A stretch of DNA of 64,000 nucleotides from Terriglobia bacterium (lineage in GTDB: Bacteria > Acidobacteriota > Terriglobia > Terriglobales > Acidobacteriaceae): the NCBI GenBank assembly GCA_020072645.1, contig JAIQGK010000004.1, positions 210,117 to 274,116 of the forward strand, read 5' to 3'. How positions within the stretch are numbered: position 1 is the stretch's first letter; every line of letters begins with the position of its first letter. The position numbers and the translations under genes were made by a program. This document shows positions 3,044 through 43,297 of this stretch, in pieces. The notes below the pieces were generated by a model. That model worked only from the letters and a program-made list of their open reading frames with translations, had not been told where the DNA came from and did not search any database.

Positions 3044-5497
3044 ATGGCGTCTGAAACAAAATCAACTACCAATATTGAGCCTATCGCTGTGACGCCTGAT
3101 CAGCGCCCAACATTAACTGAGGAACAGCAGAAGAGCATACCGGTCCTGCCGGTCCGTGACACAGTACTGTTCCCGCATGCGGTCCTGCCGTTAACGGTAG
3201 GGCGCGAGAGCTCCATTCAACTGATCAATTCGCTGGGTGAAGAGAAGACCATTCTGGTGGTCGCCCAGCGTGAAGCCCGCGTGGATGCACCGCAACCTAC
3301 TGATTTATATGCCATTGGAACGCTGGCCACCGTGCACAAAGTGGTCAAGATGCCGAACCAGAGCCTGTTTGTTTTTACTGAAGGCCTGACGCGCGGCAAG
3401 CTACAGGACTTTACCCAGCTCACGCCTTTCCTGCGCGCCAACGTAGAGCCGATTCCAGACACGGAACCGGAAACCTCGCCGGAGATTGAAGCGCTGCAAC
3501 GCAACGTGCTGACCTTGTTCCAGCAGATCGTGGCCGGTTCGCCAACGCTTTCAGACGAACTTCAGACCGTGGCCATCAACATTGAAGAGCCGGGCAGGCT
3601 GGTGGATTTTGTCGCATCGTCGCTGCCGTTTCTCTCGACCAAAGACAAGCAGGAAATCCTGGAAACGCCGGACGTAAGCCACCGCTTGCAGGCCATCAAC
3701 CATCATCTGGCGAAAGAGCTGGAAGTGCAGCAACTGCGCAACAAGATCCAGAATGAAGTGCAGGACCAGGTGCAGCAGTCGCAGCGCGAATACTACTTGC
3801 GCGAGCAGATGAAGGCCATACAGAAAGAACTGGGCGAGCAGGATGAGACCCAGCGTGACGTGGAAGAGTTGCGCCAGAAGATTGAAGCGGCCGGGATGCC
3901 GGAGGAAGTAAAGAAAGAAGCGACCAAGGAACTGAACCGGCTGGCCCGTATGTCTCCGATGGCGGCGGACTATTCCGTGACGCGCAATTACATTGAGTGG
4001 CTGGCGGTTTTGCCGTGGGCCAAGTCGAGCGGCGTTGTGGTTGACATCAAGAAAGCCGCCGAAGTGCTGGATGCGGACCATTACGATCTGAAAAAAGTAA
4101 AAGACCGCATTCTGGATTATCTCTCCGTGCGCCGGCTCAAGCCGAGCATGAAAGGGCCGATCCTCTGCTTTGTGGGACCTCCGGGCGTGGGCAAGACTTC
4201 TCTGGGACGCAGCATTGCGCGCGCGCTGGAGCGGAAATTTGTGCGCCTCTCACTGGGCGGCGTGCATGATGAAGCGGAAATTCGCGGCCATCGCCGTACA
4301 TACATAGGCGCTCTGCCGGGACAGATCATGCAAGGTCTGCGCCGCGCAGAGACCAACGATCCTGTTTTTGTGCTGGACGAAGTGGACAAGCTGGGGCGCG
4401 ATTTCCGTGGCGATCCGTCATCGGCGCTGCTGGAAACGCTTGATCCTGAACAGAACTCCACGTTCCGCGACAACTATCTGGACGTGCCGTTTGATTTGTC
4501 GAAAGTGCTTTTCATCTGCACGGCCAACATGCTCGATACGATTCCCGAGCCGTTGCGCGATCGCATGGAAATCATCGAGCTGCAGGGTTACACGGAAGAC
4601 GATAAGGCGCACATCGCCGAGCGCTACCTGGTTCCGAAGCAGATTGAAGAAAACGGCCTGACGCAAGAACAGATTGAAATTCCAGAAGATGCCGTCCGGT
4701 TTATCAGCCGGCATTACACGCGTGAAGCGGGCGTGCGCAACCTGGAGCGCAACATCGGTACCATGTGCCGCAAACAGGCGCGCCGCATTGCTGAAGGCAA
4801 CACAGAAAAGCTGACGGTAACGCGCGAAGTGGTGCAGGAATTTCTGGGCGGAATCAAGATCCGCATTGATACGGAAATTGCCGAGCGTACCAAGCGTCCC
4901 GGCGTGGCGGTGGGATTGGCCTGGACACCCGCGGGCGGCGACATTCTGTTCATCGAAGCCAACAAGATGAAAGGCAAGGGCGGCTTCACTATGACCGGAC
5001 AGATCGGCCAGGTGATGCAGGAATCCATGCAGGCGGCGCTGACATGGGTGCGGTCGAACGCGGAAAAGCTCGCGATCCCAGAGGAGTTTTTCAAGGACCA
5101 TGACATTCACATCCACGTGCCTGCGGGCGCCATTCCGAAAGATGGCCCCTCAGCGGGTGTGACGATGGCGACTGCGTTGGTTTCACTCTTGAAAGACACG
5201 CCTGTGCGTCCGCTGACCGGGATGACCGGTGAGCTGACTCTGAGCGGGAACGTGTTGCCGATCGGCGGAGTGAAGGAGAAATTTCTGGCGGCGAAGCGCG
5301 CTGGGGTGAAAGACATACTCTTCCCGGCGGAGAATCGCATGAACGTTGAAGAAGACCTGACTCCGGAACAGCTTGAGGGCGTGAACCTGCACTTCTGTAG
5401 CACGATTGAAGAGGTACTGGAGGTTGCGCTTCCGGGCTCGCGCCTGGAAGAGCGGCAGGACGCGGAAACGCGCGAGCGCGTGTTAAGCAACGCCTAA
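3044..5497 (+). CDS. lon: ATP-dependent Lon protease
   Basis: Cytoplasmic AAA+ serine protease that degrades misfolded and regulatory proteins. Its 817 residues are full length. The N-terminal substrate-binding domain begins near VLPVRDTVLFPHAVLPLTVG, and a long coiled-coil stretch (about 200-280) leads to the AAA+ module with Walker A GPPGVGKTS and Walker B VFVLDEVDK. The C-terminal protease domain carries the Ser-Lys dyad: S703 in PKDGPSAG, and K746 in GGVKEK, exactly 43 residues later as in E. coli Lon (S679/K722). An AAGGA sequence precedes the ATG. Two extended -10 boxes lie upstream and a strong terminator follows, so it is probably transcribed alone. Confidence 0.98.
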   Translation: MASETKSTTNIEPIAVTPDQRPTLTEEQQKSIPVLPVRDTVLFPHAVLPLTVGRESSIQLINSLGEEKTILVVAQREARVDAPQPTDLYAIGTLATVHKVVKMPNQSLFVFTEGLTRGKLQDFTQLTPFLRANVEPIPDTEPETSPEIEALQRNVLTLFQQIVAGSPTLSDELQTVAINIEEPGRLVDFVASSLPFLSTKDKQEILETPDVSHRLQAINHHLAKELEVQQLRNKIQNEVQDQVQQSQREYYLREQMKAIQKELGEQDETQRDVEELRQKIEAAGMPEEVKKEATKELNRLARMSPMAADYSVTRNYIEWLAVLPWAKSSGVVVDIKKAAEVLDADHYDLKKVKDRILDYLSVRRLKPSMKGPILCFVGPPGVGKTSLGRSIARALERKFVRLSLGGVHDEAEIRGHRRTYIGALPGQIMQGLRRAETNDPVFVLDEVDKLGRDFRGDPSSALLETLDPEQNSTFRDNYLDVPFDLSKVLFICTANMLDTIPEPLRDRMEIIELQGYTEDDKAHIAERYLVPKQIEENGLTQEQIEIPEDAVRFISRHYTREAGVRNLERNIGTMCRKQARRIAEGNTEKLTVTREVVQEFLGGIKIRIDTEIAERTKRPGVAVGLAWTPAGGDILFIEANKMKGKGGFTMTGQIGQVMQESMQAALTWVRSNAEKLAIPEEFFKDHDIHIHVPAGAIPKDGPSAGVTMATALVSLLKDTPVRPLTGMTGELTLSGNVLPIGGVKEKFLAAKRAGVKDILFPAENRMNVEEDLTPEQLEGVNLHFCSTIEEVLEVALPGSRLEERQDAETRERVLSNA

Positions 5498-5519
5498 GCA
5501 GTTCCTTTTTGATTTATCC

Positions 5520-5550
5520 GGGCGGGGAGCAATCCCTGCCCAGTTTTTTT
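5520..5550 (+). terminator. rho-independent terminator of lon
   Basis: GGGCGGGGA (5520-5528) pairs with TCCCTGCCC (5533-5541) with one G.U, around a GCAA tetraloop. AG and seven T residues follow. It lies 23 bp after the lon stop codon. Confidence 0.9.
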
Positions 5551-5657
5551 GTGGGCATTTTTCTTTACGTAGTCCCCAATCTAAGGTGAGCTTCCGGCCA
5601 GCAGCAGCACAGCTACGAGCATCCAATGCAGCATATAACCACCATTCCGAGGGACCC

Positions 5658-7304
5658 ATGTTGAAGGCTACAAATTCCGGAAGCAACTCTGCTTTTTCAG
5701 AGTGGCTGAAATTGCCGATGTGGATCTCTTTCAGCTTGTCGCTCCTTTTGCTTCTCGCGCTTGCCGGAGTTTCTTGCGTCGCGCAATCTGCAAGTAGCAG
5801 CATCAGCGCTTACGCTGACGCTATCAAGCAATCCACGATCTCCGAGCGCATCGCTGCCATGGATCGATATGTGGCGATGGCTGGCAGCAGCAAATTGAAA
5901 ACGGACGCGCTGGAGTTTCTTGTCTGGGACAATCTTCGGTTAGGACATCAGTCACAGAGTGCGCAGCGGGCCAAAGAATTGCTGGCTATCTCACCCGGCA
6001 ATCCGATTGCGGTGGCAGTACTCAATCAGGACATGTCGTCCGCATCGCGCGATAAAACCGCGACGGCGAACCGGCTGGCACAATTGAATTCCGCCATGAG
6101 CAGCCTTGATCAGTTGGGCAAGCCTGAAGGCATGCTGGATAGAAATTTTCAGGTGCTCAAGCAGCAGGTCGCCATCATGCTGAATGGCGCGGTTGGCCTG
6201 AGTTATCTGGCGATAGAAGATTACCCGCAGGCGCGCATGGCGTTGGAGCAGGCCGTAGCCAGTGATCCGAATAATGCGCAGTTAGTTTATGGCATGGGAC
6301 TGGCCCTGTTGAATGGCAAAAACCGCGATCAATATCGCGGCTACTGGTATCTGGCGCGCGCAGCAAATCTAACCGCAGGAACGCCGCAGGGGCAGGAGAT
6401 CAACAATTACGCATGGCAAGCGTATGTAAAAGACGGCGGAAAAGCTGAGGGCTGGCAGCGTTATCAGGCCAGCGCTGCTGCGTTGGACGCGCCACCCAAC
6501 CCCGACACAGGAAAGCCGCAGCCCGCAGCTAGCGTCGTCGCTTCCAGCCGCACCAATTCGCGATCGACGGGAAATTCTGCAGCGTCCGCGAATAGCGCAA
6601 GCGCGGCAAAGCGAACAGAGACGACCGAAGCGTCCAATCGAGGGAGTTCTTCGAAAAAGAAAAAAACGCCTTTTGGTTTTGAAGATACGCTGCATGAGCC
6701 GCCTTCACGTGAACCTGTCGTATCGGCAAATGCTCCTGCAAACCGGCCTAAAGTGATTGCTGCGCCCTCTGAAGCCGTGTCACTGGGCATACTGATTGAG
6801 ACTTCGCTGCTGACCAGCCAGAACAGGCGGGCGATTATTGCCACGTTGAAAGACATCGTAAGGAATCTGCGGGTCAATGATGAAGCCTGCATCCTGGTCT
6901 TTAGTGACCAGCTTGACTTTGAGCAGGACCTTACGGCCGACGACGCGCTTCTTGAAGAAGCGCTTGGCCAGATACGTCCCAAGCAGGGCAAGGCGCTGCT
7001 CTCTGGAGTGGCTTTTGCCGCGGGACACTTGAAGCGTATTGGCAAGAACAGTAACCGAGTCCTGCTGGTGATTTCCGATGGACGCAGCGGGCAGGCCACG
7101 TCAGATACCCTCACGTTCCGCAGCCAGGTAAGCGGTGTGCGCATTGACTGTATTGGGCTGAATGCTGGTGGCGCATCCGAGCGTGCGTTGCTGGAGCAGG
7201 TTGCGGCGTATTCCGGCGGCAAAGCGTCTTTCGCGTCTGATTCAGGCGAATTCCGCACCGCGGCGCTGCAAATGACTCGTAACATGGGAATCGCTGTACC
7301 GTAA
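5658..7304 (+). CDS. secreted TPR / VWFA-related protein
   Basis: About 548 residues from the chosen ATG, which has GAGGGA just upstream. The frame is open a little further, to 5586. Residues about 18-45 form a signal or anchor segment (MWISFSLSLLLLLALAGVSC). The middle holds TPR-like helices (GLSYLAIEDYPQARMALEQA, DPNNAQLVYGMGLALL), then a low-complexity Ser/Ala/Asn linker. The C-terminal 190 residues have the strand pattern of a von Willebrand A domain (LGILIETSLLTSQ, ACILVFSDQLDF, NRVLLVISDGRSG, VRIDCIGL). The metal-site DxSxS is replaced by ETSLLTS, so the MIDAS is probably not canonical. It resembles the VWFA family expanded in Acidobacteria (second member at 10546). Role unknown; export suggests an envelope function. 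Confidence 0.8.
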   Translation: MLKATNSGSNSAFSEWLKLPMWISFSLSLLLLLALAGVSCVAQSASSSISAYADAIKQSTISERIAAMDRYVAMAGSSKLKTDALEFLVWDNLRLGHQSQSAQRAKELLAISPGNPIAVAVLNQDMSSASRDKTATANRLAQLNSAMSSLDQLGKPEGMLDRNFQVLKQQVAIMLNGAVGLSYLAIEDYPQARMALEQAVASDPNNAQLVYGMGLALLNGKNRDQYRGYWYLARAANLTAGTPQGQEINNYAWQAYVKDGGKAEGWQRYQASAAALDAPPNPDTGKPQPAASVVASSRTNSRSTGNSAASANSASAAKRTETTEASNRGSSSKKKKTPFGFEDTLHEPPSREPVVSANAPANRPKVIAAPSEAVSLGILIETSLLTSQNRRAIIATLKDIVRNLRVNDEACILVFSDQLDFEQDLTADDALLEEALGQIRPKQGKALLSGVAFAAGHLKRIGKNSNRVLLVISDGRSGQATSDTLTFRSQVSGVRIDCIGLNAGGASERALLEQVAAYSGGKASFASDSGEFRTAALQMTRNMGIAVP

Positions 7305-7468
7305 TAAGCGTCACAATGAAGTCCATGAAAGCTCGCATGCGCTTCATCACGGGCGCAAAAAATTCCGGAGCAGTGCGTGAAACCACTCCGGATGAAGTTC
7401 GTAAACTGTGCAATAGCCTTAATGGCTTATACGAGATTAGACGCACAAAAATCGCCTCTGTATTCAAC

Positions 7469-9649
7469 CTAGCCATTGGCTTTTAGAGCCTCGGCCTCCT
7501 GCCGCTCAAAGCGTGCCATAATCCGTAGAATGCCAGACCCACCGACCATCACTGCTTCGAGTTCCAGCTTGCACGTGACCACATACCGGTAACTATCACT
7601 GTCGTTGAATCGAATTTGAAGTAAAACATTGCTCACATTCTGTGAGCGCATCACATCAAATAGTGCCTCTCCCGTAAATAACGTGCCTCCTGGGTTTTGG
7701 ATGGAGACTTCGCACAATTTTGATCCATCCTCTTTACTTAAGCGTGTAAAGTGTGGAACAAATTTTATTCTGAATTGGTTAATCTGAACGTCAGGAATCG
7801 AAATGTCGTAAGCCGGCTCTCCATCATTGGCAATGATTAAACCGACTGCGAAGCTCTTTTCGTTTTCTCGATCATAAGAGACCGGCCTGATCTTTGGGCA
7901 TTTAGTTGGCAATTCGTGTTTCTCGGCGGCCCGATCACAAGCAGCGAGCAATGCTTTCAGAGCAGCGTCTAATTCAGCACGGAGTTCCGGTTGGCCGTCT
8001 TCATGATCTCGCTTTGCAACAAACATGCGGTCAAGCACGTTTTGAAGATCTAACACAGCGGTGCGGACTTCAGGATATCGAACAAATCTGCCAGGAGCGC
8101 GACGAAATTCATCAAACCAAGGCACCAACGCCGTTCCATCCAAAGGTCTATAACTGCTGAGTTCCTCGACAAGCTGGCCAGCCAATTCCTCTAAAGCAAA
8201 AAATCGATCAGGCTCCTTAGCTGTCAGGATGCTTGGCTGCTCCTGACTTTCCTGCTGACGCGTGAACTCACGATTGAGTTCTTCAATTTCTGCCATTAGA
8301 TCGTGAGGAAAAAAATCAGTCTCAATGTTTGCTTTTCTCAGTGCCCTTTGACCACGGCCGCTGATCCTAGGATTCGGATCAAGAGTCCCGATTACAACCC
8401 GAGCCACTTTTCGATCAATCAACCGAATGGCACACGGGATCTTTGGGTCATTTCTGCTGGTGCAAGGTTCCAAGGTGGTATAAACAGTCGCGCCAGCAAG
8501 AGACTGATCCGCAAGCTTTTTCTCTAAGGCTATGAATTCCGCATGACAGCCAAAGATCTCTCCTCTGTGTGCTCTTGCTAACACTCTCCCGTCTTTAACA
8601 ACAACAGCGCCGACTTTTGGATGAAAGCGACCGTCCTCCGCTCTGCTCTTGCGAGCTTCATCGATCGCCATCTTCATAAATTGTCGATCGTCATTCGTGC
8701 GAGGGTTAAGTTGAAAAAATGCTTCTTCGATACCACTTTCTGTGGGCTCACCGAACACAATTTCGGCATCACTGAATACAGTTCTACCTCTCAATGACCG
8801 ACCTGTATTCGGATTGGCTTTGCCAAATCTATTGTTGTATTCGTCAAGATCGAAATGGCTGACGATGTTATCAGAATGGTCTAACAAATAAATTGATAAA
8901 GATTTGGCATCTTCAGGAATGTCAACCTCAATGCTCCCTGACTTGAGCGGAATAGATTGAGATCGATCCTTACTCTCAATATGAGAAATTCGAAGCTCAA
9001 TTTGTTCCGGTGGCACTTTCAGTTCGACTTCGAGATAGAGCTTCTTTTGTTGCCAATCTGCACTCAAAATGCGAGCTCGCGAATCAGGGAAAATGGTAAC
9101 AATAGTGTCTTTGGTCGGCAGATCAGCACTGGGCAAATTATAAGTGTCCTGATTGAAAATCCAGTCATTAATGGCATGATCCGGTCCCTGATAGGGACTT
9201 GCTCCGCGTCGGACTAAATCTCCTTGCGGAACATAAAGCTCTTTCCAAGTTTCGTCACGATCTCTCCTGCTTTTCAAGTCATAGCCAGTCCATAAATCTC
9301 TTCCCGCAGGATAGATACGCTGGCTAAATTCTGACCTGCTGAAGGTTGCCTTAATCCGATGACCCTCGATCTCGGCCTGCCCAGACAGGAGCCTTGACAA
9401 GAGACTTACGGCCTCCCATTGTTCGCGGCACCAATGTTCGACAAAAACGAACTTCCTGTCTCCCTGTCGATATGTTTCCGGAGCACGTGACGCAACATGC
9501 TGATCACGGAAAATCACAGCACCGGTCAAAAGCTGTTCTGCGCCGTCGCCTAAGAATGCGAGCCTAAATTGTGCACCTGCATATGGCTTGGTCGTGCGAA
9601 GGTGCTCAGAAATGGCGTTTATTGTGTCTCGGGGAGAGTTAAAGTCCAT
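7469..9649 (-). CDS. large cytidine/dCMP deaminase-fold protein
   Basis: A protein of about 726 residues (an upstream TTG at 9673 would add 8). The only recognised part is a zinc-dependent deaminase domain at about residues 325-450. It starts at RQFMKMAIDEARKS and VGAVVVKDGRVLARAHRGE, has the active-site H369-A-E371, and has the zinc ligands C396 and C406 in TTLEPCTSRNDPKIPC. The fold is closest to RibD and dCMP deaminases. No RibD reductase domain or P-loop follows. About 320 unrecognised residues precede it, and about 280 follow, ending in a beta-rich domain. It stands alone between unrelated genes. Some stretches are strikingly AT-rich (8881-8940 is 37% GC), which suggests horizontal origin. 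Possible roles are nucleotide-based defence, RNA editing or a specialised metabolite step; none can be fixed from sequence. Confidence 0.75.
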   Translation of the reverse strand: MDFNSPRDTINAISEHLRTTKPYAGAQFRLAFLGDGAEQLLTGAVIFRDQHVASRAPETYRQGDRKFVFVEHWCREQWEAVSLLSRLLSGQAEIEGHRIKATFSRSEFSQRIYPAGRDLWTGYDLKSRRDRDETWKELYVPQGDLVRRGASPYQGPDHAINDWIFNQDTYNLPSADLPTKDTIVTIFPDSRARILSADWQQKKLYLEVELKVPPEQIELRISHIESKDRSQSIPLKSGSIEVDIPEDAKSLSIYLLDHSDNIVSHFDLDEYNNRFGKANPNTGRSLRGRTVFSDAEIVFGEPTESGIEEAFFQLNPRTNDDRQFMKMAIDEARKSRAEDGRFHPKVGAVVVKDGRVLARAHRGEIFGCHAEFIALEKKLADQSLAGATVYTTLEPCTSRNDPKIPCAIRLIDRKVARVVIGTLDPNPRISGRGQRALRKANIETDFFPHDLMAEIEELNREFTRQQESQEQPSILTAKEPDRFFALEELAGQLVEELSSYRPLDGTALVPWFDEFRRAPGRFVRYPEVRTAVLDLQNVLDRMFVAKRDHEDGQPELRAELDAALKALLAACDRAAEKHELPTKCPKIRPVSYDRENEKSFAVGLIIANDGEPAYDISIPDVQINQFRIKFVPHFTRLSKEDGSKLCEVSIQNPGGTLFTGEALFDVMRSQNVSNVLLQIRFNDSDSYRYVVTCKLELEAVMVGGSGILRIMARFERQEAEALKANG

Positions 9650-9771
9650 AGTCTTTGCTGTGTTCAAGCCCAATTTTATTAGATTCTAGACCGCAATAAG
9701 GAATCTACACCCGCAAAAAAGAAGCAGTTCCCCAGCAAAAAGTTGTCGAGCACGCCAGGCTGAGTTTCCGC

Positions 9772-9777
9772 TATTCT
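9772..9777 (+). promoter_or_regulatory. -10 box of a probably leaderless moaD-moaE transcript
   Basis: TATTCT ends 6 nt before the ATG at 9784. No Shine-Dalgarno sequence is visible, so transcription would begin at or next to the start codon. No clear -35 is seen. Confidence 0.45.
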
Positions 9778-9783
9778 TATTTC

Positions 9784-10494
9784 ATGCGTGTTAAGGTGCT
9801 GCTGTTCGGGCAGCTCAAAGACATTGTTGGCCGGCAGGAAGAGTCTCTCGATCTGGATTCAGGGGCCCGGCTCTCAGCCGTGATGGACCATTATTCCGGT
9901 CTCTATCCCAAATTCCAAGGTCTCACCAAGTCGATTGCGTGCTCCATCAACCAGGAATATGCGCAGGGCGAGGCGCTGCTTAAAGAAGGCGACGAGGTTG
10001 GCCTGCTGCCTCCGGTAAGCGGCGGGAAATCCAAAGCGGCGGAACTCCAGTCCGCGCATTGCGCCATTGTGCGCAAACCCATTGATATTCAGGCGATTAG
10101 AAAGAACCTGGAGCGTCCGGAAGACGGGTCAGCATTATTTTTTGATGGAATTGTGCGCAATAATACGCGCGGCCGGCGTACTTTGTTTTTGGATTATGAA
10201 GCCTACGAATCCATGGCTTTAAATGAGATGGAAAAGCTGGCCCAGGCGGCACTTGAGCAATTTAAAGTGCGCGACGTTTGCCTGATCCATCGGCTGGGCA
10301 GACTGGAGATTGGGGAAACCAGCGTGCTGATCGGCGTTGCTTCTGCGCATCGAGTGGCCGCTTTTGAGGCCTGCCGATGGCTGATTGATACGTTAAAAAA
10401 GACCGTCCCGATCTGGAAAAAGGAGTATTTCGAGGATGGCGCGGTCTGGGCCGATGGTGAACCTTTTCCTGAACAAATTAGGGTAAATAAATAA
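9784..10494 (+). CDS. fused molybdopterin synthase MoaD-MoaE
   Basis: Makes molybdopterin by adding two sulfurs to cyclic pyranopterin monophosphate. The 236 residues hold both subunits. Residues 1-81 are the ubiquitin-like MoaD (MRVKVLLFGQLKDIVG ... EVGLLPPVSGG), with its Gly-Gly at positions 80-81. Residues about 88-236 are MoaE, with GIVRNNTRGR, YEAYESMA, HRLGRLEIGE, ASAHRVAAFEACRW and the catalytic Lys region PIWKKEYFEDG. In separate proteins the MoaD Gly-Gly must be the free C-terminus to be thiocarboxylated, so the fusion should need cleavage after G81, as reported for mycobacterial MoaX. No other moa gene is close. A leaderless promoter is suggested just upstream. Confidence 0.93.
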   Translation: MRVKVLLFGQLKDIVGRQEESLDLDSGARLSAVMDHYSGLYPKFQGLTKSIACSINQEYAQGEALLKEGDEVGLLPPVSGGKSKAAELQSAHCAIVRKPIDIQAIRKNLERPEDGSALFFDGIVRNNTRGRRTLFLDYEAYESMALNEMEKLAQAALEQFKVRDVCLIHRLGRLEIGETSVLIGVASAHRVAAFEACRWLIDTLKKTVPIWKKEYFEDGAVWADGEPFPEQIRVNK

Positions 10495-10545
10495 CTCTTT
10501 ACCGCCGTTTGCATCTAAGTTTGCCAGAATACCCGCTTGATAACT

Positions 10546-11535
10546 ATGAATCGGACTCGCGCTTTGTCGCCGTGGTTCAGTCTGGCTTGCCTGTTGGTCG
10601 GCCTGCTCTGTGTGTGGGGCCTGCATGCCGTGGCCCAGGACCCGCAGCAGGGAGACCGCATCCCTCCGGGATCACAATCGCAAAAAGATCAATCCACCTA
10701 CCGCGTGAACGTGCGGCTGGTAAACGTTTTTACCACTGTGACCGATTCCCGTGGTGCTCCGGTGGCCGACCTCACAAAAGACGATTTCCAACTGTTTGAA
10801 GATGGCATTCCGCAGACGATCAAAGTGTTTGAGAAAGAGTCCGCTATTCCGCTGAGCATCGCGCTGGCGATTGACACCAGCCCCAGCACCATGCGCGACT
10901 TTAAGCTGGAAACTACCTCGGCGCGCAGGTTTGTCCATTCCATCTTGCGGAATGAAGATCGCCTCTCAGTTTTTGAAGTGACGGAAAACATTGACCAGAT
11001 AACGCGTTTCACTTCTGACCTGAGGACGATTGAACATGGCATTGACAGTTTAAAAACAGGGCCGGGGACATCCATCTACGACGCAATTTTTCTCTGCTCA
11101 GAGTCGCTGCTGGACCGCGAAGGCCGCAAAGTTTTGGTCCTGATTACAGACGGCGGCGATACGACCAGCAAGGCCGACTACAACACCGCATTGCGGCGGG
11201 CGCAGCAAGCGGAGGCAATTGTCTATAGCATTATTGTGGTGCCGGTGGAAGCCGATGCCGGGCGCAACCTGGGCGGCGAGCACGCGCTCATACAGATTTC
11301 AAAAGATACCGGCGGAAAATATTATTACGCTGAAGGCCAGCAGCAGCTTGATGAAGCCTTCCGCAAAATCAGTGACGAATTGCGCACGCAATACCTGCTG
11401 GCTTTTTATCCCACCCGCAAGATTTCAGATTCGCCCTTCCGTAAAATCAAGGTGGAGCTTACCAAAAAAGATCCTGAAGGGCAGGCGTATCAAGTGCGCC
11501 ATCGTGCGGGATATTACACAGCGCCAGCGAGATAG
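10546..11535 (+). CDS. secreted VWFA-domain protein, acidobacterial type
   Basis: About 329 residues with an N-terminal signal peptide (SPWFSLACLLVGLLCVWGLHAVAQ). A conserved segment follows (YRVNVRLVNVFTTVTDSRG, VADLTKDDFQLFEDG), the hallmark of the acidobacterial VWFA-related family (TIGR03436). The VWA domain has an intact metal site: D-T-S-P-S in ALAIDTSPSTM, the Thr in GPGTSIYDAI, and the Asp in VLITDGGD. ATG 10546 is preferred over the in-frame TTG 10537. The protein is exported and probably mediates protein-protein contacts in the envelope; its partner is unknown. The gene starts 51 bp after moaD-moaE and may be co-transcribed with it. Confidence 0.9.
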   Translation: MNRTRALSPWFSLACLLVGLLCVWGLHAVAQDPQQGDRIPPGSQSQKDQSTYRVNVRLVNVFTTVTDSRGAPVADLTKDDFQLFEDGIPQTIKVFEKESAIPLSIALAIDTSPSTMRDFKLETTSARRFVHSILRNEDRLSVFEVTENIDQITRFTSDLRTIEHGIDSLKTGPGTSIYDAIFLCSESLLDREGRKVLVLITDGGDTTSKADYNTALRRAQQAEAIVYSIIVVPVEADAGRNLGGEHALIQISKDTGGKYYYAEGQQQLDEAFRKISDELRTQYLLAFYPTRKISDSPFRKIKVELTKKDPEGQAYQVRHRAGYYTAPAR

Positions 11536-11566
11536 TAGCTAGCAACCAGTAGTCGGCCAAATTTAT

Positions 11567-11756
11567 ACCGCAAAGGACGCGAAGGTCGCAAAGGAATATT
11601 GGGTTGAATTTTTTGGTGCGCTTACCGACCCTCGAAGTTAACATGCGCAAAGTTCCAGCATTCATCCGATGGCTTACCACAAAGGTCGCAAAGAACACGA
11701 AGGAGCAGGGAACGGCCCTTCGCTCCTTCGCGACCGTTGCGTCCTTTGCGGTTAAG
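11567..11756. repeat. CGCAAAGGwCGC intergenic repeat, one direct and one inverted pair
   Basis: Three copies of a degenerate unit, ACCGCAAAGGACGC-GAAGGTCGC-AAAGG, lie between two genes. Copy 1 is at 11567-11596 (+), copy 2 at 11676-11707 (+, with ACCACAAAGGTCGCAAAG and ending ACGAAGGAGC), and copy 3 at 11722-11756 (inverted). Copies 2 and 3 can form a long imperfect hairpin with a 14-nt loop. Reading frames across it are not convincing genes. Confidence 0.6.
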
Positions 11757-11838
11757 TCTTTAGTTGCTGATTGCGGGCCGCTGCCGGTTGAGTCCGTTAG
11801 TAACTGCTTTTTCTGCGACTGCTGGCGACTTTTTGCGC

Positions 11839-11844
11839 TAGAAT
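11839..11844 (+). promoter_or_regulatory. -10 box of a probably leaderless hfq-like transcript
   Basis: TAGAAT ends 6 nt before the ATG at 11851. There is no Shine-Dalgarno sequence in the preceding 20 nt. Confidence 0.45.
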
Positions 11845-11850
11845 ATCGGC

Positions 11851-12126
11851 ATGTCTTTCCGTGCAGCCGCCCCAGCCTTTACCAAAAAGACCACCAAAAC
11901 TCCGCCTCCGGATGATACGGGAATGGAGTCCTCTTACCTGAAAGCTCTGGGTGAGAAACAGACGCCGGTGACCGTGAAACTGGTCTGCGGAGAAGCGTTG
12001 CACGGCTGGATTGAATACTACGACGTAGGCATGGTACGCCTTACCCGCGAAGGCTCGCCCAATTTGTTTATCTTCAAGCACGAAATTATGTACATTGCGG
12101 AAGATACCGGGCGCCGCGCGCGCTGA
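11851..12126 (+). CDS. hfq: Hfq-like Sm-fold RNA-binding protein
   Basis: A 91-residue protein with a disordered, basic N-terminal extension of about 25 residues (FTKKTTKTPPPDD) and an Sm/Hfq core. The core starts with the helix SSYLKALGEKQTPVTVKLV. It continues through the Sm1 strands (CGEALHGWIEYYDVGMVRL) and ends in NLFIFKHEIMYIAED, the counterpart of the Sm2 YKHAI motif, in which the His contributes to RNA binding on the proximal face. The core is divergent from enterobacterial Hfq, and the extension replaces the usual C-terminal tail. Likely role: hexameric RNA chaperone in post-transcriptional control. It overlaps suhB by ATGA, so the two are translationally coupled. Confidence 0.85.
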   Translation: MSFRAAAPAFTKKTTKTPPPDDTGMESSYLKALGEKQTPVTVKLVCGEALHGWIEYYDVGMVRLTREGSPNLFIFKHEIMYIAEDTGRRAR

Positions 12127-26857: not shown

Positions 26858-27290
26858 ATGTGTGGCATCGCAGGATTTTGGCAGACTAAACGGCAAGCGG
26901 AAATTCCTGCCGAAATTTTGCTCCGAATGGGTACCGCGCTCAAGCACCGTGGTCCAGATGACTCTGGTGTGTTCTATGACGATTCCACTGGTGTAGGGCT
27001 TGTCCATCGACGCTTGTCAATTCTTGATCTTTCACCCGCCGGCCATCAGCCGATGACCTCGCATTCAGGCCGTTACGTAATCATCTTCAACGGCGAAGTT
27101 TATAACTTTGAAGAAATAAGAAAAGAGCTTGTCCCTGGCCATGCCTGGCGAGGCCACTCCGATACTGAAGTGATGCTGGAGGCGTTTGAGCGCTGGGGCG
27201 TGGAAGGAGCTGTGCAGCGGTTTGTCGGCATGTTTGCTTTTGCTCTTTGGGACCGTAAGGAGCGGAAGCTTTATCTTGTTCGCGACCGAC
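26858..27290 (+). pseudogene. asnB: asnB head fragment (glutamine amidotransferase domain)
   Basis: The start of a glutamine-hydrolysing asparagine synthase. MCGIAGFWQ has the nucleophile Cys2, and LKHRGPDDSG, RRLSILDLSPAGHQPM, FNGEVYNFEEIRKEL and GHSDTEVMLEAFERWG show an intact class II amidotransferase domain of about 140 residues. The family sequence breaks off at VRDRL (27287), where LGIKPLYY should follow, and the synthetase domain of about 450 residues is missing. AGGAG precedes the ATG. In EPS loci such proteins amidate sugars or peptides. The remnant reads on for 68 junk residues to 27493. Confidence 0.85.
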
Positions 27291-27315
27291 TGCAGCAATT
27301 TGACTTCAGCCGTGA

Positions 27316-28033
27316 AATATTGCGGCAACAGCGGCTGGTAAAGATGGCATCATTTCCGTCTCCGTTGACGATCGCTGTCCCGGACGCGCGGCTGAAATGG
27401 CTAACGCGTACATTGACGAGCTGGAAAAACTTACCAGAACGCTGGCCATTACTGACGCCGGCAAGCGGCGCATCTTCTTTGAGCGCGAAGTAAAAGACGC
27501 CAATGACGAGCTGGCCGCCGCTGAATCGCAACTCAAGCAAACTGAAGAGAGCACCGGCATTATCCAGCTTGATAGCCAGGCCAAAGTAATGCTGCAGGCT
27601 TATGCCGACCTTCGTGCCCAGGTCGCCATGAAGCAGGTTGAACTTCAGTCAATGCGCTCTTTTGCCACTCCAGAAAACCCTGATCTCATCCGCGTGCAGC
27701 AGGAACTGGCCGCTCTGCAGACCCAGCTTTCGCGTTTTGAACGCGGACAGGGAACTCATTCTCCCACTGACCTGGCGCTGGAAAAAGTGCCCGGCGCCGG
27801 ACTTGAATACGTCCGCAAGTTGCGCGAAGTAAAGTACCGTGAGACCTTGTTTGAGCTTTTGGCCAAGCAATATGAAGCCGCCCGCATTGACGAAGCCCGC
27901 GACGCCTCCGTTATCCAGGTCATGGACAAGGCCATCCCGCCGGAAAAGCGGTCCTGGCCCAAGCGCGGGCTCTTTGTTATGGCCGTCACGTTATTTGCGC
28001 TATTGCTCGGCATTCTGCTGGCCTACCTCACTG
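27316..28033 (+). pseudogene. Wzz/GumC-type chain-length determinant, tail fragment
   Basis: The C-terminal half of a polysaccharide co-polymerase (chain-length determinant, GNVR type). The open frame begins without a start at AAGKDGIISVSVDDRCPGRAAEMANAY. Long coiled coils follow (LEKLTRTLAITDAGKRRIFF, FEREVKDANDELAAAESQLK). Then come the GNVR-like stretch near the membrane (KVPGAGLEYVRKLREVKYRE) and the last membrane helix (GLFVMAVTLFALLLGILLAYL). The N-terminal helix and periplasmic alpha/beta head are missing. There is no cytoplasmic tyrosine-kinase part, because glycosyltransferase sequence takes over right after the helix. A peptide from the internal ATG 27397 could still be made. Confidence 0.8.
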
Positions 28034-29062
28034 AAGGTGACGAGGGAACAATTGGCCCTCGCGCTGGGCGTCCCGGTCCATTGCCTGGGATTGAGGCGCA
28101 ATGCGCCGAACCCTTTTCGCGTCCTCTCCATCCTGCCGCTGGCCCGGCGCATTAGTCCCCAGCTTGTCCAGGGATGGATGTATCACGGCAACCTGATGGC
28201 CAGCATGGCCGCGCTGGCCTGGCGGAAAAATGCCGTGCGCCAGAAGCCGCCGGTGCTCTGGAACATCCGGCAGACCGTTTACGATCTGCGCCGTGAGCGA
28301 TGGCTGACCGCGAGACTCATTCGCCTGGGCGCGCGTCTTTCCGCCGGCCCCGCTGCCATCATTTACAACAGCCAAACCAGCGCTAGCCAGCATGAGAGTC
28401 TAGGCTATCGCGCGGAAAAACGAGTGATCATTCCCAATGGCTTTGACTGCCAACTCCTGCGTCCGGATGAAGCTGCGCGGAAGGCAGTTCGGGCAGAACT
28501 GGTCATCACCGACGATATTGTTTTGGTCGGCTTGGTAGCTCGCTACCATCCTATGAAGGACCATGTAGGTTTCCTCAAGGCTGCTGCCATGGTAGTTCGA
28601 TCTCATCCGCAAACTAGGTTCGTGCTGGATGGGAGCGGCATTAGCTGTAAGCAACCAGAGTTAGCGGAAGCAATCCAGCAAAATGAACTTCAAGCCCACG
28701 TTATCCTGCTGGGTGAGCGATCTGACATTCCACGCTTGAACAATGCATTCGATATCGGTTGTTCCGCCTCCGCCTGGGGAGAAGGTTTTTCCAACTCCAT
28801 TGGTGAGGCCATGGCCTGCGGCGTTCCGTGTGCGGTAACAGACGTGGGCGATAGTGCGTACATTGTGGCCGATAGCGGTTTTGTTGCTCCGCCGCGTGCA
28901 CCTGAAGCTCTTGCCCATGCTATTGTACGCCTGATTAACGTGGGTAGATCGGGCCGCCAGCAGCTAGGAGCCAAGGCGCGGCAACGAATTGAAACCGAAT
29001 TCAGCCTTCCGGCCATTGTCCAAAGGTATGAGGATCTTTACCTGACCCACTTCCAAAAATAA
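28034..29062 (+). pseudogene. GT4 glycosyltransferase lacking its N-terminus
   Basis: The family 4 (GT-B) glycosyltransferase sequence starts abruptly with DEGTIGP (28039-28059) in the Wzz frame. It then continues in a second frame from about 28061 (ALGVPVHCLGL) to the stop at 29062. The donor-binding half is intact: VIIPNGFDCQLLRPDE, VGLVARYHPMKDHVGFLKAA, LLGERSDIPRLNNAFDI, and the EX7E-type ASAWGEGFSNSIGEAMACG. Missing are about the first 50 residues (first beta strand and Gly-rich loop), so it is probably inactive. It would add one sugar of the repeat unit. There is a small out-of-frame lesion near 28057-28061 besides the truncation. Confidence 0.8.
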
Positions 29063-42805: not shown

Positions 42806-43297
42806 TTAAATGCGTGTGCTGCCGGAAGCAGGTAAACCTGAAACGCGCTGGTTGCCGTTTTCAGATAATTGACTGTGAATCAGGACTTGGTGCTTGCTGC
42901 ACTGGATACTGCTGAAAAATTCTTTGTTCGCGACAGGGCCCGATGTCGGCTGCCATTTTCGGCACATCTCCAATTTTCTAAACTTGGGGCTTCTTCCAGG
43001 AAAGTTAGCTTGGTTGAGACTCGGGCGTGAATCAACTTGAATTTCCCCGGAAGAAGAGCCTGCTGCAAATTCAAAAATCGAACCTGCAGAGTAGCTGCAC
43101 ATTACCAACGTGAGATTGTCGCTGTCTGTGACGGCGGTCACTGGATTAGAGTGATTTAATGATTTTGTCGCTCGACTATCCAGGCAGACGAAATCAATTT
43201 TCTCTTCGCGGAGCCGGCACGCGTTAGCATCGAACAAACTTGCATCTGCAGGGCGTGTGCTATGTGCGTTTTCCGGAATGAGAACTCTACGTTTCAT
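42806..43297 (-). CDS. hypothetical protein upstream of the oxidase
   Basis: Not recognised. It would be a 163-residue, soluble-looking protein with scattered Cys (LREEKIDFVCLDSRA, TLVMCSYSAGS, KLEMCRKWQP) and no signal peptide, membrane segment or domain motif. AGAGAGA 6 nt before the ATG and its orientation with the flanking redox genes favour it. Its plain composition and lack of motifs do not. It could equally be the leader region of the multicopper oxidase gene. Confidence 0.35.
   Translation of the reverse strand: MKRRVLIPENAHSTRPADASLFDANACRLREEKIDFVCLDSRATKSLNHSNPVTAVTDSDNLTLVMCSYSAGSIFEFAAGSSSGEIQVDSRPSLNQANFPGRSPKFRKLEMCRKWQPTSGPVANKEFFSSIQCSKHQVLIHSQLSENGNQRVSGLPASGSTRI

Follow-up and report, generated by a model that had tools for sequence, protein, structure and literature searches.

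The window gene, which encodes a deaminase fusion protein, sits between a TPR/VWA-like gene and a MoaD/MoaE-like molybdopterin synthase gene in the 64,000-nucleotide stretch of DNA that we analysed as a whole (the window). An alternative upstream TTG start would lengthen the product to 734 residues. The gene is convergent with the TPR/VWA gene and divergent from MoaDE, in keeping with the first-pass annotation, which had described it as solitary with no riboflavin gene nearby; reference RibD loci do have such neighbours. The genes around it, as read from their open reading frames, are lon, moaDE, IMPase, amt, ligA and polysaccharide genes, and no defence gene lies near the window gene itself. 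Elsewhere in the window, two adjoining plus-strand frames (26858–29062) may be a split gene; the product of the first begins with MCGIAGFW, resembling asparagine synthetase.

Table 1. Coordinates of the deaminase fusion gene, its parts, the inserted segment and the flanking genes (window positions).
Feature	Coordinates	Strand	Basis or remarks
Deaminase fusion protein, whole ORF, 726 aa	7469..9649	-	ATG start
N-terminal module, residues 1–277	8819..9649	-	Common to AlbA_2 proteins
RibD-like zinc deaminase core, residues 317–482	8204..8701	-	Profile matches, PDB matches, tree
H369-A370-E371, zinc ligand and catalytic glutamate	8537..8545	-	H and E in 16/16 members
C396 to C406, zinc cysteines enclosing clade-specific R399 and K403	8432..8464	-	Cysteines 16/16; R399 and K403 15/16
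Predicted helical linker, residues ~481–577	7919..8209	-	Single-sequence model alone, low confidence
C-terminal β-rich domain, residues ~575–700	7550..7927	-	31–35% identity to L049–L051
Inserted segment	7450..9733	.	Left junction ~7450, right junction 9733–9758
Left neighbour, TPR/VWA-like protein	5586..7304	+	Conserved in genus
Right neighbour, MoaD/MoaE-like molybdopterin synthase	9784..10494	+	ORF reading, genus comparison

Composition sets the gene apart from its surroundings. Its GC content is 0.475, and its GC3 of 0.44 is the lowest among the 38 window frames of 150 residues or more (median 0.618, s.d. 0.055); the second-lowest value (0.48) belongs to a 163-residue frame at 42806–43297. 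Two genomes of the same genus have a near-empty site. The TPR/VWA and MoaDE neighbours of G520 align on both sides, with 57 bp in place of the 2.3 kb between 7450 and 9758, and in G624 ~57 bp separate the VWA and MoaDE genes. At this site the closest relative, G609, carries 785 bp of unrelated sequence (L076 205–990) without a clear intact gene. No repeats were seen flanking the inserted segment. Because of the near-empty sites, we conclude that the window gene is a horizontally acquired single-gene insertion, a transfer that its lower GC had already suggested.

The core belongs to the zinc-dependent cytidine deaminase superfamily fold, with the HxE and PC...C zinc/catalytic motif at the positions first assigned to it (H369AE371, C396 and C406) and a PF00383 match over residues 319–422 (E=1.4e-15). 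Its closest solved relatives are PDB RibD chains (residues 320–466, E ~1e-19), identity to reference RibD cores is ~33–40%, and the TIGR00326 (RibD) model aligns with residues 325–471 at 85.9 bits, below its 156.35-bit cut-off. The protein also passes the Pfam gathering cut-offs for the MafB19-deam (PF14437) and Inv-AAD (PF18785) families, both more weakly than for PF00383, and Pfam recognises no toxin-delivery domain in it. Searches of the whole protein returned only deaminase-type families from Pfam (no reductase domain and no AlbA_2), only RibD and TadA models from NCBIfam (no anti-phage dCTP deaminase model) and no match from PADLOC.

A tree places 16 cores of the family in a clade separate from RibD and TadA (branch support 99/99). 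H369, E371, C396 and C406 are invariant across all 16 aligned members, and L032 and L033 have HGE where other relatives have HAE. Three basic residues mark the clade: R362 is found in 16/16 members, against H in 8/10 RibD and N in 14/14 TadA proteins, and R399 and K403 are each found in 15/16, at positions where RibD has Y/H and P. Residues of the substrate pocket are unlike those of either RibD or TadA. The window protein thus shares fold family and zinc motif with the RibD deaminase domain but differs from RibD in clade, in these residues and in having no reductase domain; with the tRNA adenosine deaminase TadA it has the zinc-deaminase fold in common, but not the clade or the residue at 362. 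A Streptomyces deaminase/DHFR pair that falls near the clade, on a branch of length 2.79, was left out of the family. Judged by sequence, the core lies outside RibD, TadA and the known dCTP-deaminase defence proteins, in a separate clade with its own marker residues. We found no account of this clade in the open-access papers searched, and an earlier description elsewhere is possible.

The flanking regions had been said to match nothing known, which proves too strong for both. Homologues of the N-terminal module (residues 2–280) occur in 6/298 genomes, none of them joined to a deaminase. Five of the six instead carry SLFN_AlbA_2 (one being N-terminally truncated), whereas no domain is recognised in the sixth; none was found in plasmids. 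A model of the module (pLDDT 77, pTM 0.73) predicts an α/β part (~1–165) followed by a β-sandwich (~182–270). The Foldseek search proposed in the first-pass annotation, run on this N-terminal part, returned Ig/FnIII-like and other matches at TM ~0.2 with RMSD mostly >14 Å; a β-sandwich is possible, and the matches are otherwise uninformative as to the whole fold. A single-sequence structure of the full-length protein was discarded (pLDDT 40.6), and a 25-row composite alignment was set aside with its domains misaligned. At the other end, residues ~575–700 have their homologues in the soluble part of small two-TM-like proteins, whose N-termini bear apparent transmembrane helices. Frames resembling IS transposases adjoin two-TM-like proteins that have this domain, at L049 2181–3166 and L051 1–306.

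The same exchange recurs with other partners. In L011 and L012, the deaminase stands at the AlbA_2 position of plasmid AlbA_2–HATPase_c_4–wHTH proteins and the remainder is collinear, HATPase_c_4 being recognised by Pfam in both and wHTH weakly in L012. Proteins of this AlbA_2–HATPase_c_4–wHTH arrangement are described as widespread defence-linked Schlafen RNases with a minimal histidine kinase and a wHTH (PMC12839542). They share partner modules with the window protein (the N-terminal module) and with L011 and L012 (HATPase_c_4), and differ in having AlbA_2 where the window family has its deaminase. Read from the domain alignments, deaminase and AlbA_2 take each other's place in two independent architectures; this domain swapping is the main new point of our analysis.

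One N-module/AlbA_2 gene, in genome G440 (L042 9770–11170), lies ~850 bp upstream of lon, after which come moaDE and a VWA gene (L042 12018–15982); this chromosomal neighbourhood is also that of the window insertion. The two sites may represent a shared insertion hotspot.

The clade is sporadic in Acidobacteriota. Three overlapping samples of genomes from the phylum or order contained relatives in 4/396, 7/298 and 5/396 cases, and further ones were found in viral contigs and in one Bryobacterales MAG; the IMG/VR viral contigs with members are L013–L015, L086 and L087. A tblastn search of plasmids and phages gave no member as close as the listed relatives, most matches inspected being ordinary RibD loci. 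The source genome encodes a second copy of 381 residues (core 49% identical), adjoining SIR2-like and Mrr genes, and also a distinct RibD-like protein of 392 residues. Other fusion partners include a sub-threshold DUF4062 match (L028), a weak, below-cut-off MazG match (L031, E=0.0017) and regions that are unrecognised or β-rich (L005, L009, L010, L029, L030 and L033). The short deaminases L086, L087 and L027 (~270–290 residues) form a branch that is more divergent; two of the three come from viral contigs, and a C-terminal extension is common to L087 and L027.

Defence genes recur around the relatives. An individually checked defence gene lies within ~6 kb at 5/12 cellular loci, the co-location that the first-pass annotation had suggested looking for. 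The L012 deaminase gene sits between hsdM with a putative hsdS and hsdR (the HsdS frame, without a Pfam match, is so called on its position and size alone), and L010, in a prophage-like region, has a REase_II (type II) and methylase pair nearby. L028 is accompanied by Cas1, a HEC-01A-like ATPase and an LmuA-like protein, L009 adjoins SIR2-like and Mrr genes, and an Old/AriA-like ATPase lies near L005. Phage contig L013 has an AbiLi-like ATPase nearby, L011 adjoins a UDG gene, and L029, L030 and L031 are without an established defence neighbour. In the surroundings of the family, 269 PADLOC models were matched, compared with 2 across ten control stretches chosen arbitrarily in these genomes rather than as matched mobile sites; redundant models inflate the first number, so 5/12 is the fairer figure. 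No riboflavin gene was recognised in the relatives' neighbour lists.

Because relatives often adjoin anti-phage genes and the deaminase occupies a Schlafen-type RNase position, we regard the window protein as probably a horizontally acquired single-gene conflict effector, most plausibly anti-phage, with a deaminase in place of the Schlafen RNase. This context agrees with the defence or conflict role guessed at the outset. The N-terminal module and the C-terminal β-rich domain would serve as sensor or adaptor parts, and the RibD-like deaminase as the warhead, at the position held by the AlbA_2 RNase in sister proteins. A phage-associated trigger would unleash the deaminase, which would convert cytosine nucleotides (dCTP/dCMP or CTP being the leading guess) to uracil forms; phage replication, and possibly the host as well, would thereby be starved or poisoned. 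We lean towards cytosine nucleotides because the core is of RibD type and has additional basic residues, and in view of the weak MazG fusion, the UDG neighbour of L011 and the precedent of AvcD. Triphosphate-specific deaminases accumulate Lys/Arg (compare CDADC1; PMC12088426), and AvcD acts in phage defence as a deaminase of dCTP/dCMP (PMC10511110), which the nucleotide depletion proposed here would resemble. The window protein nevertheless differs from the AvcID system in having neither a PADLOC nor an AvcD-type NCBIfam match and no Rfam match near its gene (window 5000–12000; Rfam may or may not include AvcI).

Nucleic acid would be nearly as likely a substrate, since the domain that the deaminase replaces is an RNase and Pfam models of nucleic-acid-type deaminases match. 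An effector with the same defence role that edits tRNA, mRNA or invading DNA in place of free nucleotides is a possible reading, though one we hold at well under even chances. Replacement of an RNA-cutting domain by a deaminase fits a nucleic-acid substrate equally well: the Schlafen RNase is replaced in two architectures, and Schlafen-linked systems are described as tRNA-cutting (PMC12839542). Nearly all scanned members exceed the gathering cut-offs for MafB19-deam and Inv-AAD, and the clade-specific basic residues are also compatible with editing. Against it, RibD, to which the nearest solved relatives belong, is an enzyme that acts on small molecules, and the weak MazG-like fusion is a hint of nucleotides; a UDG neighbour is compatible with either. 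More tentatively still, the deaminases of this clade and the Schlafen RNases could be exchangeable between defence architectures, the deaminases disabling infected cells through editing of tRNA or another nucleic acid; if so, two chemically distinct warheads share a single set of sensor modules.

Readings outside host defence fare less well. Members in the five viral contigs and the prophage-like region of L010 would suit a module that is selfish or serves the phage, for instance a superinfection exclusion or anti-defence protein on mobile elements. We consider this unlikely, as many members are chromosomal and some lie with restriction genes, but defence carried by prophages would look identical. 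The RibD-like core with its intact catalytic residues would befit a metabolic or salvage enzyme that merely happened to be passed on horizontally; the missing reductase domain, the want of riboflavin genes near the window gene or recognised near relatives, the separate 392-residue RibD-like protein, the sporadic distribution and the highly varied fusion partners make this improbable. Least probable of all is a degenerate or regulatory pseudo-enzyme, to which the HGE of L032 and L033 would point, as the zinc ligands and catalytic glutamate are invariant in every one of the 16 aligned members.

As the window protein has no PADLOC match, it would probably escape defence finders that rely on this library. 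If the probable role as a conflict effector is right, a RibD-derived branch would be added to the deaminases of bacterial immunity, and Schlafen-type sensor modules would be able to bear a different warhead. Proteins with the common N-terminal module should then answer the same trigger, regardless of which warhead they carry.
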